A DNA stretch of 64,000 nt from an uncultured Clostridia bacterium (lineage in GTDB: Bacteria; Bacillota; Clostridia; Christensenellales; Borkfalkiaceae). Below, one piece after another: positions 48,983 to 55,707 of the stretch (position 1 is the first letter of the stretch; the number at the start of each line of letters is the position of its first letter). The DNA is taken from contig CALVHO010000009.1 in the NCBI GenBank assembly GCA_944328445.1, positions 1 to 64,000 of the forward strand, in the 5' to 3' direction. Made by a program: the position numbers and the translations under genes. The notes beneath the pieces were generated by a model. It was not told the DNA's origin, made no database searches, and was given only the letters and a program-made list of their open reading frames with translations.

Positions 48983-50629
48983 TCACATTGCGGCCGTCCC
49001 CGCCTCCCCCGCCGCGGAACAAAGCGGCGGCGCGGTACCCGCGCGGGGCGGCGGACCGCCAAAGGCGGCCTGCGCGCGGCGCACCTGCATTCCCGCGCGG
49101 CTGATATCCGCCCCGTCCGCGCGCGGCCCGCCCTGTACGCAGGCGCCTGCCTCCCCTTGCGGGGACGGTCCTTCTTCCGCAGGTCCTTCTTCCGCGGGCC
49201 CTTCTTGCCGCCGCCCGCCGCCGAGGGTATCCTTGTACTTCGGGTAGCGGCGGAAATAGGCGCGCGTTTCGCGGACGACGACGCCCGACAGGCAGAGCAG
49301 CGCGATGAGGTTGGGGATGGCCATCAGCCCGTTGAAGATGTCCGCGATGTTCCAGACTTCGGCGACGGTCATGTACGGGCCGATGAACACGGCGGCGATG
49401 TAGGCGATGCGGTAGGCGTACACCGCCGCTTTGCGGCGGCCCGCCACGTATTCGAGGCAGCGTTCGCCGTAAAAATTCCAGCCGAGGATGGTGGTGAATG
49501 CAAAAAAGATCAGGCACACCATCAACAGCACGGGGCCCGCGGCGCCGAGAACCCCGGGGAGCCCCTGCGTAAACGCCTCCATGGTCACGGCCACCCCTTC
49601 CAGCCCGGGCACCTGCCACGCGCCCGTGATGACGATGGCGAGCCCCGTCATGGTGCAGACGACGAGGGTATCCAAAAAGGTGCCCGTCATGGAGACGAGG
49701 CCCTGGCGCACGGGTTCGCCCGTCTTGGCGGCCGCGGCGGCGATGGGCGCCGAACCGAGGCCCGCTTCGTTGGAAAAAATGCCGCGCGCGATGCCCTTCT
49801 GCATGGCGACGAAAAAGCTGCCCACGGCCCCCGCGCCGACGGCGCGGGGCGAAAAGGCCCCCACCACGATGGCGCGGAAGGCGGCGGGAACGGCGGTGAC
49901 GTTCGCGCCGAGGATGATGAGACAGATGAGGACGTACAGCACCACCATGAAGGGCACGACGGCCTCCGATACCTTGGCGATGCGCTTGACCCCGCCGAGC
50001 AGCACCAGCGCCACCGCCAGCGTCAGCACGGCGCCCGCGATGATGACGGCCAGGCTGTATTCACGCCCGAGCAGAGACAGTTGCGGCCCTCCCGTGAAGA
50101 TGTTGCCCACCGCGTCGGTGATGCTGTTGACCTGCGAAAAGGTGCCGATGCCGAAGAGCCCCACGCACATGCCGAGCACGGCGAAGATGACGGCCAAAAA
50201 CTTCCAGCGGCGGCCCATGCCGCTTTCTATATAATAAAAGGGGCCGCCGAGGGTGTGGCCGTCCTCGTACACCTTGCGGTATTTGACGGCCAAAAGCCCC
50301 TCCGCGTATTTCGTGGCCATGCCGAAAAAGGCGGCGATCCACATCCAGAACAGTGCCCCGGGCCCGCCCAGCACGATGGCCGTGGCCACGCCCACGATGT
50401 TGCCCGTGCCGATGGTCGCCGACAGCGCCGTGCAAAGCGCACCGAAGCTGGAAACCTCGCCCGCGCCCTCCTCCTTGCGGAACATGTAGCGGAAGGCGCG
50501 CCCGAGCTTGCGCACGGGCACGAACAGGAGGCGCACCGAAAGGTAAATGCCCGCGCCCAGGATGAGCACGATGAGCGGGATGCCCCATACAAAATCGTCT
50601 ACAGACTGAACGATCTCACCAAACGTCAT
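48983..50629 (-). CDS. Sodium:alanine/glycine symporter (AGCS family)
   Basis: The 548-residue membrane protein has about eleven helices. The family signature region is ALCTALSATIGTGNIVGVAT with GGPGALFWMWIAAFFGMATK following, and FSNEAGLGSAPIAAAAAKTG later. It should import alanine or glycine with sodium. A C-terminal cytoplasmic extension of about 75 residues (EEGPAEEGPAEEGPSPQGEA) is low-complexity. The glycine riboswitch upstream suggests that glycine is a substrate and signal. The gene is alone in its transcription unit. Confidence 0.92.
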   Translation of the reverse strand: MTFGEIVQSVDDFVWGIPLIVLILGAGIYLSVRLLFVPVRKLGRAFRYMFRKEEGAGEVSSFGALCTALSATIGTGNIVGVATAIVLGGPGALFWMWIAAFFGMATKYAEGLLAVKYRKVYEDGHTLGGPFYYIESGMGRRWKFLAVIFAVLGMCVGLFGIGTFSQVNSITDAVGNIFTGGPQLSLLGREYSLAVIIAGAVLTLAVALVLLGGVKRIAKVSEAVVPFMVVLYVLICLIILGANVTAVPAAFRAIVVGAFSPRAVGAGAVGSFFVAMQKGIARGIFSNEAGLGSAPIAAAAAKTGEPVRQGLVSMTGTFLDTLVVCTMTGLAIVITGAWQVPGLEGVAVTMEAFTQGLPGVLGAAGPVLLMVCLIFFAFTTILGWNFYGERCLEYVAGRRKAAVYAYRIAYIAAVFIGPYMTVAEVWNIADIFNGLMAIPNLIALLCLSGVVVRETRAYFRRYPKYKDTLGGGRRQEGPAEEGPAEEGPSPQGEAGACVQGGPRADGADISRAGMQVRRAQAAFGGPPPRAGTAPPLCSAAGEAGTAAM

Positions 50630-50671: not shown

Positions 50672-50689
50672 GAAAACGAGCGTTTTGCG

Positions 50690-50770
50690 CTCCGTCCTTT
50701 TGCCTGAGAGATCGCCGCGCGGATGCGCGGTTTACACCTTCGGCGCCTTTTTTGGCCTCTCCGGAGTTGA
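50690..50770 (-). promoter_or_regulatory. Glycine riboswitch aptamer (single)
   Basis: On the minus strand the sequence has the conserved glycine-aptamer blocks: CCGGAGAGGCC at the 5' side, GGCGCCGAAGGTGTAA in the middle, a GC hairpin, and ATCTCTCAGGCAAAAGGAC at the 3' side. Only one aptamer is seen, not a tandem pair. A terminator follows, so glycine binding probably decides termination of the symporter mRNA. Whether it turns expression on or off is not known from sequence. Confidence 0.9.
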
Positions 50771-50781
50771 TTGACCCATAC

Positions 50782-50872: not shown

Positions 50873-50901
50873 TTGACCGCGCGCTTTCTCCGTGATAGAA
50901 T
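50873..50901 (+). promoter_or_regulatory. Promoter of the ABC-F leader
   Basis: TTGACC (50873-50878), 17-bp spacer, TAGAAT (50896-50901). The leader to the ABC-F ATG is about 215 bases, long enough for the attenuator described below. Confidence 0.75.
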
Positions 50902-50947
50902 AGAAGTACACAGGGGCGAAAAGCCCGCCATGCGAACGGGAGGCAAA

Positions 50948-50968
50948 ATGTACATTTCTTGCAGATAA
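50948..50968 (+). CDS. Six-residue leader peptide of the ABC-F gene
   Basis: A tiny frame encodes MYISCR and stops. It has its own SD (GGGAGG, ending 5 bases before the ATG) and lies 40 bases after the predicted transcription start. Antibiotic-inducible ABC-F and erm genes often use short leader peptides where a drug-stalled ribosome alters downstream RNA folding. The strong SD, position and downstream terminator support a real regulatory peptide, although six codons could arise by chance. Confidence 0.55.
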   Translation: MYISCR

Positions 50969-51002
50969 CAATTTTACGCGGAATTGCGGGCGGCAAAGGC
51001 CG

Positions 51003-51093
51003 CTCTTTTCCGCGCGTTGTCGCAAGAGATATTTTCGGATAAACATACGCGGAGCCGCGGGAATTTTCTCTTGCGGCTCCGCGTTGTTTTTTG
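51003..51093 (+). promoter_or_regulatory. Transcription attenuator in the ABC-F leader
   Basis: CGCGGAGCCGC (51048-51058) pairs with GCGGCTCCGCG (51073-51083) and is followed by TTGTTTTTTG, a strong terminator. An alternative pairing exists: CGCAAGAGA (51021-51029) is complementary to TCTCTTGCG (51067-51075), which would take up part of the terminator's right arm. A third pairing, CTCTT (51003-51007) with AAGAG (51024-51028), would block that antiterminator. The two exclusive folds plus the leader peptide make ribosome-mediated attenuation plausible. Confidence 0.65.
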
Positions 51094-51123
51094 TGCACGG
51101 CTCCGCCGCGAGAAGGAGAAACC

Positions 51124-52599
51124 ATGTCACAGATCAGTATAAATAATTTGACCTACCGCTATCCCGGCGCTTACGATAACGTATTTGAAAACTTTTCCGT
51201 CACGCTCGACACCGATTGGAAGCTCGCCCTTACGGGCAGGAACGGGCGTGGAAAGACCACCCTGTTAAAGCTCGTCGGCGGGGAGCTTTCCCCGGACGCA
51301 GGGAGCGCGTCGTGCGCCGTCGCTTGCGAATACTTCCCCTTTTCCGTTCCCGACGCGCCCGACGCCCTCTCCGCTCTGTACTGCGCGCGGCCCGAACTCG
51401 AACTGTGGCGGTTCAAAAAGGAGATGCGCGGGCTGGAACTTGCGGAGGAAACGCTCGAAAAGCCATTTTGCACGCTTTCGGGCGGGGAACGGACGAAACT
51501 TCTGCTCGCCGCCCTGTTTTCGGAGGAAAACGCATTCCTCCTGATAGACGAACCGACCAACCACCTCGACGAGACGGGCAGAAAGCGGCTCGCCGCGTAC
51601 CTGAAAGAAAAGCGCGGGTTTATCCTCGTTTCGCACGACAGGGATTTTCTGGACGCATGCTGCGACCATATACTCGTTTTGGAGGCGGAGGGAGCAACGC
51701 TCCGAAAGGGCAGCTTTTCCGATTGGTTCAAGGACAAGACTGCCGCCGACGCCGCCGAACGGGAAAAGAACGCGCGGCTGGCAAAGCAGATCGACGCGCT
51801 CAAAGCTTCCGCCGAGAGGACGAGTTCCTGGGCGAGCAAAGTGGAAGCAAGCAAAAATCAAAAAGTTTCCGGACTGCGGCCGGACAAAGGGCATATCGGC
51901 GCAATGGCGGCAAAAATGGCAAAGCGCGCCAAAAGCACCGAACAGCGGAGGGAAAAGGCGATCGAGGAAAAGAGCGCGCTCCTGAAAAACGCGGAGTTTT
52001 ACGGAAAGATGAAGCTCAGCCCCCTGCCCTTCCGCGCGGAGACGCTCTGCACCCTCTCGCACGTTTCTGCGGGATACGGCGAAAGGGCCGTCGTGCAAGA
52101 CGTGAGCGCGGAGATCCGCCGCGGAGAACGGATCGCCGTGCGGGGCGCGAACGGGTGCGGCAAGAGCACGCTTTTGAAGCTGGCGACGGGCGCGCTCTCC
52201 CCTATGCAGGGCACGTTTTCAAAGCCGAACGATCTGATCGTTTCCTATCTTCCGCAGGATACGGGCGGGCTTTGCGGGCCTTTATACGGATTTGCCGAAG
52301 CGCACGGGGCGGAGCCGCCGCTCGTGATGGCGATCCTGAACAAGCTGAACTTTCGCAGCGTCCTGTTTGAAAAGGATATTTCCCTTTACAGCGAGGGGCA
52401 GAAAAAGAAGGTCGCGCTCGCCGTTTCTCTCGCGACGCCCGCCCATTTGTACGTGTGGGACGAGCCGCTCAATTACATCGACCTCGTTTCGCGCATACAG
52501 ACGGAGCAGCTGCTCTTAAAATACGAGCCGACTCTCCTGTTCGTCGAGCACGACGCCGCGTTCGTGCGGAACGTCGCCACAAGGACGATCGAATTGTAA
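51124..52599 (+). CDS. Lsa-type ABC-F ATPase (antibiotic resistance/ribosomal protection)
   Basis: The 491-residue protein has two ABC ATPase domains and no membrane domain. It begins MSQISINNLTYRYPGAYDNV and continues FENFSVTLDTDWKLALTGRN, closely matching the start of Lsa-type ABC-F proteins. Walker A motifs are GRNGRGKTTLLKL and GANGCGKSTLLKLATG; signature motifs are LSGGERTKLLLA and YSEGQKKKVALAVS; Walker B motifs are FLLIDEPTNHLDE and LYVWDEPLNYIDL. The charged linker between domains (about residues 185-300) reaches the peptidyl-transferase centre in this family. Lsa proteins protect ribosomes from lincosamides, pleuromutilins and streptogramin A. The drug range here is inferred. Confidence 0.9.
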   Translation: MSQISINNLTYRYPGAYDNVFENFSVTLDTDWKLALTGRNGRGKTTLLKLVGGELSPDAGSASCAVACEYFPFSVPDAPDALSALYCARPELELWRFKKEMRGLELAEETLEKPFCTLSGGERTKLLLAALFSEENAFLLIDEPTNHLDETGRKRLAAYLKEKRGFILVSHDRDFLDACCDHILVLEAEGATLRKGSFSDWFKDKTAADAAEREKNARLAKQIDALKASAERTSSWASKVEASKNQKVSGLRPDKGHIGAMAAKMAKRAKSTEQRREKAIEEKSALLKNAEFYGKMKLSPLPFRAETLCTLSHVSAGYGERAVVQDVSAEIRRGERIAVRGANGCGKSTLLKLATGALSPMQGTFSKPNDLIVSYLPQDTGGLCGPLYGFAEAHGAEPPLVMAILNKLNFRSVLFEKDISLYSEGQKKKVALAVSLATPAHLYVWDEPLNYIDLVSRIQTEQLLLKYEPTLLFVEHDAAFVRNVATRTIEL

Positions 52600-54934: not shown

Positions 54935-55019
54935 GGGAAGATTCCAGAGTGGCCAAATGGATCAGACTGTAAATCTGACGTCTCCGACTTCGGTAGTTCG
55001 AATCTACCTCTTCCCACCA
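54935..55019 (+). tRNA. tRNA-Tyr (anticodon GTA), CCA encoded
   Basis: An 85-base class II tRNA with a long variable arm. Acceptor GGGAAGA pairs with TCTTCCC; anticodon loop CTGTAAA; T-arm GGTAG/CTACC with loop TTCGAAT. Its 3' end is copied in the repeats downstream. Confidence 0.95.
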
Positions 55020-55022
55020 CGC

Positions 55023-55052
55023 AAAAGGCACTGACTTCCGTCAGTGCCTTTT
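55023..55052 (+). terminator. Terminator of the tRNA operon
   Basis: A perfect 13-bp stem (55023-55035 with 55040-55052) ends in TTTT, right after the tRNA-Tyr CCA. Confidence 0.9.
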
Positions 55053-55059
55053 GTGTTAC

Positions 55060-55217
55060 GGGAAGAGGTAGTAAACAGAAATACCGTGTTCTCGGTAGTT
55101 CGTGCGAGCATTGCGGCGCAGCGGTTACGGGTGTGTTGTTTGCGCGTCCGCAATGCGACGCTTTGCCGAGGGGTCCCCGCTTGCGGGGTTTCGGCAATAT
55201 GTAACCTCTTCCCACCA
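55060..55217 (+). repeat. Divergent first copy of the tRNA-Tyr-derived repeat
   Basis: The element begins GGGAAGAGGT and ends ACCTCTTCCC plus ACCA, so its ends pair like a tRNA acceptor stem, with the 5' GGGAAGA and the 3' TCTTCCCACCA copied from tRNA-Tyr. Inside, CGGTAGTTCG (55093-55102) matches the tRNA T-arm. About 100 bases of new, hairpin-rich sequence then separate the two halves of the T-arm. The anticodon region is lost. It shares this insert with the two 245-bp copies. Confidence 0.8.
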
Positions 55218-55462
55218 GCAAAAGGGATACCCACAAGGGTGTCCCTTTTGCTGTGTAAAGAGGTAATTGCAGAAGTGCCGCATTCACGGTAGTGACGCGA
55301 TCGCGCCTACGGCGAACGATCGCTATTCCGTCGCTTCGCTCCTTACGCGCGAGCATTGCGGCGCAGCGGTTACGGATATGTTGTTTGCGCGTCCGCAATG
55401 CGACGCTTTGCCGAGAGGTCCCCGCTTGCGGGGTTTCGGCAATATGTACCCTCTTCCCACCA
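55218..55462 (+). repeat. 245-bp tandem repeat, copy 1
   Basis: The unit holds, in order: a 16-bp terminator-like hairpin (55217-55232 with 55237-55252, one G-U); AAGAGGTA and CGGTAGT remnants of tRNA-Tyr; an inverted repeat GCGATCG/CGATCGC (55297-55303 and 55317-55323); GCATTGCGG/CCGCAATGC (55353-55361 and 55393-55401); CCCCGC/GCGGGG (55420-55433); and TACCCTCTTCCCACCA, a copy of the tRNA-Tyr 3' end. No protein coding is evident. Confidence 0.92.
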
Positions 55463-55707
55463 GCAAAAGGGATACCCACAAGGGTGTCCCTTTTGCTGTG
55501 TAAAGAGGTAATTGCAGAAGTGCCGCATTCACGGTAGTGACGCGATCGCGCCTACGGCGAACGATCGCTATTCCGTCGCTTCGCTCCTTACGCGCGAGCA
55601 TTGCGGCGCAGCGGTTACGGGTGTGTTGTTTGCGCGTCCGCAATGCGACGCTTTGCCGAGGGGTACCCGCTTGCGGGGTTTCGGCAATATGTACCCTCTT
55701 CCCACCA
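55463..55707 (+). repeat. 245-bp tandem repeat, copy 2
   Basis: It matches copy 1 at all but four positions that I could see, two near 55620 and two near 55661-55665. The near identity points to recent duplication or gene conversion. It again ends in the tRNA-Tyr-like CTCTTCCCACCA. Confidence 0.92.

Follow-up and report, generated by a model that had tools for sequence, protein, structure and literature searches.

Organization of the leader region

The Lsa-related ABC-F gene at 51124..52599 on the forward strand of the window, i.e., of the whole 64,000-nucleotide stretch of DNA analysed here, is very probably controlled by a ribosome-mediated transcription attenuator. This reading is supported by a conserved upstream open reading frame (uORF), a covarying anti-antiterminator, a competing antiterminator, and a terminator, all located on the same strand as the gene. 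The promoter, TTGACC and TAGAAT separated by 17 nt and with an extended -10 TG, lies at 50873..50901, and transcription would start near 50908. The leader uORF lies at 50948..50968 and has its own Shine-Dalgarno (SD) sequence, GGGAGG, at 50938..50943. It consists of six codons and a stop (ATG TAC ATT TCT TGC AGA TAA), reading MYISCR. Codons 3-5 of the uORF (nt 7-15) make up the segment R1 (ATTTCTTGC, 50954..50962, with an extension at 50964-50969), the 5' strand of the anti-antiterminator. The segment R2 (GTTGTC-GCAAGAGAT, 51016..51030) is the alternative partner of either R1 or R3, while R3 (TCTCTTGCGGC, 51067..51077) is a near-copy of R1 which forms both the upper 3' arm of the terminator and the antiterminator partner of R2. 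In the first pairing 50954-50962 is matched with 51022-51030 and the extension with 51016-51021. In the second, 51021-51029 is matched with 51067-51075, and the helix can lengthen to 51019-51029/51067-51077. The intrinsic terminator (51047..51092) has a 16-bp stem, 51047-51084, followed by a U-tract, 51087-51092, and the SD of the ABC-F gene, AAGGAG, is found at 51113..51118.

The leader RNA folds with z = -6.05, and none of 200 shuffles was equally stable. For the window alone, compared with dinucleotide shuffles, R1:R2 gave p = 0.04 and R2:R3 gave p < 0.001. The antiterminator R2:R3 and the intrinsic terminator are mutually exclusive in the window. The parts which a preliminary description had placed before the ABC-F ATG were all recovered, namely the promoter, the MYISCR leader with its SD, two exclusive pairings, and a strong terminator; the pairing of 51021-51029 with 51067-51075 is an exact match as described. 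One more copy of the 3' arm of the terminator (GCGGCTC-like) was noticed at 51099-51106, downstream of the U-tract and ahead of the ABC-F SD, and the genus alignment contains it at the same place in most members. Once read-through has occurred, this copy might pair with the 5' arm of the terminator.

Identity and surroundings of the ABC-F gene

The gene encodes an ABC-F ATPase of the ribosomal-protection type, 491 aa long. The protein scored 411 bits against the NCBIfam model ribo_prot_ABC_F (NF000355), above the curated cut-off of 380. The top-scoring model was Lsa with 545 bits, which is under the curated cut-off of 750 for that model; relatives from the genus scored 542-554 bits and lsa(E) 848. 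The best solved structural homologue was Lsa(A) (7nhk), and a quick tree grouped the Borkfalkia proteins in a clade that had support and a long branch and was nested within a set of proteins with lsa(E) and lsa(B) among them. Given these profile scores, the structure match, and the tree placement, Lsa-related is a safe name for the product as far as sequence comparison goes. The predicted drug spectrum is lincosamides, streptogramin A, and pleuromutilins. By ABC-F protein the closest named relative is Candidatus Borkfalkia avistercoris, with 95% identity.

The ABC-F gene is divergent from agcS (48983-50629, reverse strand), an amino-acid carrier gene preceded by a glycine riboswitch (RF00504, 52 bits, 50682-50774, reverse strand). 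The gene order agcS / ABC-F / sigF is conserved in the closest relatives. Further along the window, at 55000-55650, the open reading frames called on either strand include peptide segments that recur, e.g., KGTPLWVSLLLVGRG and GIPFAGGK, which suggests a repeat array.

Conservation within Borkfalkia

The genus sample comprised 40 genomes, 16 of them with a strong ABC-F match. Usable leaders amounted to 14 with the window included, while L023 (49% at the protein level, common to other genera) and L012 (cut by a contig end) were left out. The promoter spacing of 17 and the TG were kept in all 14 members. A six-codon uORF with SD, ATG, and TAA was present in every member with an intact upstream region, at ABC-F identities of 61-95%, and its peptide varied: MYISCR, MYDSCG, MYISYR, MYIFCA, MYIFCV, MNIFCA, MYIFCR, and MYISRR.

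Covariation was assessed on 13 sequences in a MAFFT alignment made without structure, with 500 shuffles and slid registers as controls. For R1:R2 together with the terminator stem, 96.8% of cells were paired and 8 pairs had changed on both sides, a level reached by none of the 500 shuffles and by no slid register. The helix R1:R2, within which the uORF sits, was by itself paired in 97.4% of cells, with five of nine pairs altered on both sides. R2:R3 in the register of the window was paired to 85% and was not significant against shuffling, because the MYIFCx clade is shifted by 2 nt; in this clade R1, R2, and R3 change together from the UUUCUUGC to the AUCUUCUGC pattern.

The leader family outside the genus

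Outside the genus, 82 Lsa-like loci were picked by protein only, and 400 bases upstream of each were scanned. A short ORF with an SD, ending in Ser-Cys or Ser-Cys-x, was found at 42 loci, compared to a mean of 0.2 in dinucleotide shuffles and 0 in reverse complements. The leader core UUUCUUGC pairs with GCAAGAAAG, mostly around 45-65 bases downstream, and is repeated in the 3' arm of a terminator shaped GAGCUGCAAGAAUU-AACUUUCUUGCAGCUC. In 35 homologues from outside the genus R1:R2 covaries as well (98.6% paired, 0 of 500 shuffles). On this sequence evidence MYISCR is a diverged member of an M-x-x-[FIT]-S-C leader family, and switches of this type stand before related resistance genes in many Firmicutes. 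No such leader was seen for lsa(B) or for the L. reuteri homologue in the stretch read.

A covariance model was built from the 35 outside homologues, with zero Borkfalkia sequences. Run on the window and the genus loci (124 kb in all), it gave 6 matches at E <= 1 (best E = 0.003), all of which fall, by position, at genus leaders; the leader of the window itself was missed at E up to 1. The genome carrying the window (1.9 Mb) yielded no second copy of the leader, a search that is uninformative since the model does not report even the copy in the window. In an RNA-only search of 297 whole genomes of the order there were 23 matches; 22 immediately precede an Lsa-like ABC-F gene, and one lies near a contig end. 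At loci L023 and L026-L029, from three genera of the family, the Lsa-like ABC-F genes are highly alike and have a leader that starts with GTG and reads MIKFSC. The great similarity of genes and leader across genera suggests recent horizontal transfer.

Folding with a modelled ribosome and proposed mechanism

The leader was folded for a series of exposed RNA ends, both bare and with a 30-base ribosome footprint placed over its AUG. The exposed end 51076 corresponds to a polymerase near the end of the U-tract, assuming that about 14 bases are covered. At this point the antiterminator had a probability of 0.00 and the terminator apex 0.98 without a ribosome, whereas a ribosome on the AUG gave 0.98 for the antiterminator and 0.00 for the terminator. 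In silico this agrees with the earlier suggestion that a ribosome stalled in the leader could favour 51021-51029/51067-51075. Four control masks (5' of the SD, two in the hairpin loop, and one between R2 and the terminator) caused no switch. The AUG mask produced the switch in 9 of 13 genus leaders and in 41 of 48 homologues. Among the four genus leaders failing the folding criterion, L010 and L019 had a poor automatic choice of R2 or R3. From an exposed end of 51080 onward the full terminator beats the antiterminator at equilibrium, even with the ribosome mask, and for this reason the modelled switch must be kinetic and depend on timing.

Induction by drug is predicted from sequence and folding, and termination and ribosome stalling are likewise deduced from the model, which would run as follows. 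Without drug, ribosomes would complete the six-codon leader and depart; R1 would then pair with R2, the R3-containing terminator would form, and RNA polymerase would stop near 51092. A drug that prevents the earliest peptide bonds from forming, with lincosamides, streptogramin A, and pleuromutilins as the likeliest candidates, would hold a ribosome on the start codon or the first codons of the leader, and the footprint of this ribosome would cover R1 and release R2. As R3 exits the polymerase, R2 would pair with it before the terminator closes, and the ABC-F gene would be transcribed. Its product would then presumably remove the drug from ribosomes, turning the switch off again. For a gut genus that is largely uncultured, this is a regulatory model open to testing.

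Start codon or leader peptide as the sensor

Arrest probably takes place on the start codon or the first codons, and not at specific leader codons. In the genus uORFs R1 spans nt 7-15 to 7-18, which places it within, or just at the border of, the region that a ribosome on the AUG would cover. Where the pairing is conserved, the peptide is not. Both points make arrest at the start codon likely. Formation of the first peptide bonds is the step on which lincosamides, pleuromutilins, and streptogramin A act. Arrest at initiation is known for the leaders of vmlR and tiaA/are5sc (PMC9226507, PMC12421871). The simplest model would have an occupied AUG, with no particular peptide, as the signal.

We regard it as unlikely that specific codons are sensed instead, by stalling inside the peptide with a context-dependent drug (phenicol, oxazolidinone, or macrolide) or when Cys, Arg, or Tyr runs short. 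The amino acids are indeed partly conserved, with M-Y-I-x-C in most of the genus and the terminal S-C in 42 of the 82 other loci, and a ribosome on codon 3 or 6 is predicted to switch the fold equally well. However, Cys is lost in two species (MYISYR and MYISRR; L011 and L022), where R2 alters to match, and wobble changes in Ser and Cys codons are compensated too. Moreover, L041 (Agathobaculum) and L085 (Lachnospiraceae) have Met-Lys-stop leaders, and L048 (Paenibacillus typhae) has ATG-stop; all three retain R1, R2, and R3, with R1 beyond the ORF at nt 9-23. The leader also has no stretch of a repeated regulatory codon, and its target gene is not biosynthetic. Replacement of the Cys codon with compensated pairing led us to reject sensing of Cys starvation. 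More generally, the loss of this codon and the ABC-F target do not correspond to an amino-acid (Cys/Arg/Tyr) attenuator. The natural one- and two-codon ORFs offer a direct way to ask whether start-codon arrest alone suffices. Ribosome-mediated attenuation as proposed in the preliminary description is supported by the uORF, the covariation, the competing helices, and the fold flip under the footprint, with the refinement that the start codon is a likelier sensor than specific leader codons.

It is very improbable that the ABC-F gene is controlled mainly at translation by occlusion of its SD, or that such control forms a second layer as in CplR and VmlR. R3 (UUUCUCUU) is by inspection complementary to AAGGAGAAA at the ABC-F SD, and both layers coexist in CplR (PMC10201436). 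Still, in the predicted full-length fold the SD is unpaired and R3 lies inside the terminator, and in 11 of 13 genus leaders and 41 of 48 homologues R3 is followed by a U-tract. That the gene is constitutive, with a hairpin due to chance and a small ORF that is not translated, can practically be dismissed in view of the conservation, the covariation, and the ABC-F-specific distribution.

The lsa(E) leader and mobile copies

The leader uORF of lsa(E) on Listeria and Enterococcus plasmids (L145, L146) reads MYNFSC, and the leader matched a model from genome-contig homologues with 82.5 bits and E = 1.7e-16. It has the same R1/R2/R3 and terminator core as the window, although R1 sits one codon later. 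Ribosome-mediated attenuation may be a shared regulatory model for Lsa-type genes, the mobile lsa(E) included, and if lsa(E) is inducible, the resistance phenotype may depend on drug exposure.

In one lsa(E) copy, on the E. faecium plasmid NZ_OU015353.1 (L142, 1200-1350), sequence adjoining an ISL3-family transposase gene has taken the place of the uORF, of R2, and of the greater part of the terminator's 5' arm, and ACTTTCTTGCGGCTTTT alone remains. Another E. faecium plasmid matches all of this junction, and coverage of the query reaches at least 80% in 3 of 337 records. Regulation of such leader-less copies should differ from that of intact lsa(E), and plasmid variants of this kind may behave unlike the intact ones.

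Comparison with known systems

At the gathering score, no Rfam family matched the leader, either in the window or in any of 20 relatives, and weak matches below the threshold were set aside. Neither Rfam nor the open-access papers searched yielded the MYISCR leader, the M-x-x-[FIT]-S-C family, or the lsa(E) leader. The peptides MYISCR, MRNFSC, MINFSC, MRNISC, MIIISC, MIKFSC, and MYNFSC gave nothing relevant in the open-access literature, and an earlier description may exist elsewhere.

The architecture of a uORF with an attenuator is proven for VmlR (PMC9226507) and CplR (PMC10201436). Like the window, vmlR of B. subtilis (uORF MIN) has a short uORF in an anti-antiterminator hairpin, an antiterminator, and an intrinsic terminator, and arrest at initiation is caused there by lincosamides and pleuromutilins (PMC9226507). 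It differs in its leader, which is another sequence of three codons, in its gene, which is ARE2 and not ARE3, and in having an SD-sequestering hairpin and a NusG-dependent pause (PMC9226507); no such hairpin was seen in the window. The cplR gene of C. difficile (uORF MRI) is likewise a clostridial chromosomal ABC-F gene under uORF-controlled attenuation, but belongs to ARE1, has an unrelated leader sequence, and its terminator hairpin also hides the SD of the gene (PMC10201436). E. faecalis lsa(A) shares the ARE3/Lsa type of gene and a conserved uORF with the window, whereas its leader sequence is MAGN and a uORF prediction only (PMC10201436). Transcription attenuators, drug-responsive in that case, are also known from Listeria lmo0919/vgaL and hflXr; both have other target genes, and hflXr has a 14-aa leader with an RLR macrolide motif (PMC6310831).

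The kind of system is thus already known from vmlR, cplR, lmo0919, and others. What appears new, as far as Rfam and the open-access papers searched go, is the M-x-x-[FIT]-S-C leader family, present in half of the 82 other Lsa-like loci and in plasmid-borne lsa(E). We think it rather likely that these leaders represent one ancestral attenuator outside Rfam, belonging to Lsa-type genes of Clostridia and Paenibacillus and mobilised with lsa(E). It would act as a start-codon sensor that conserves the spacing between AUG and R1 but leaves the peptide free to change or to shrink to one or two codons.
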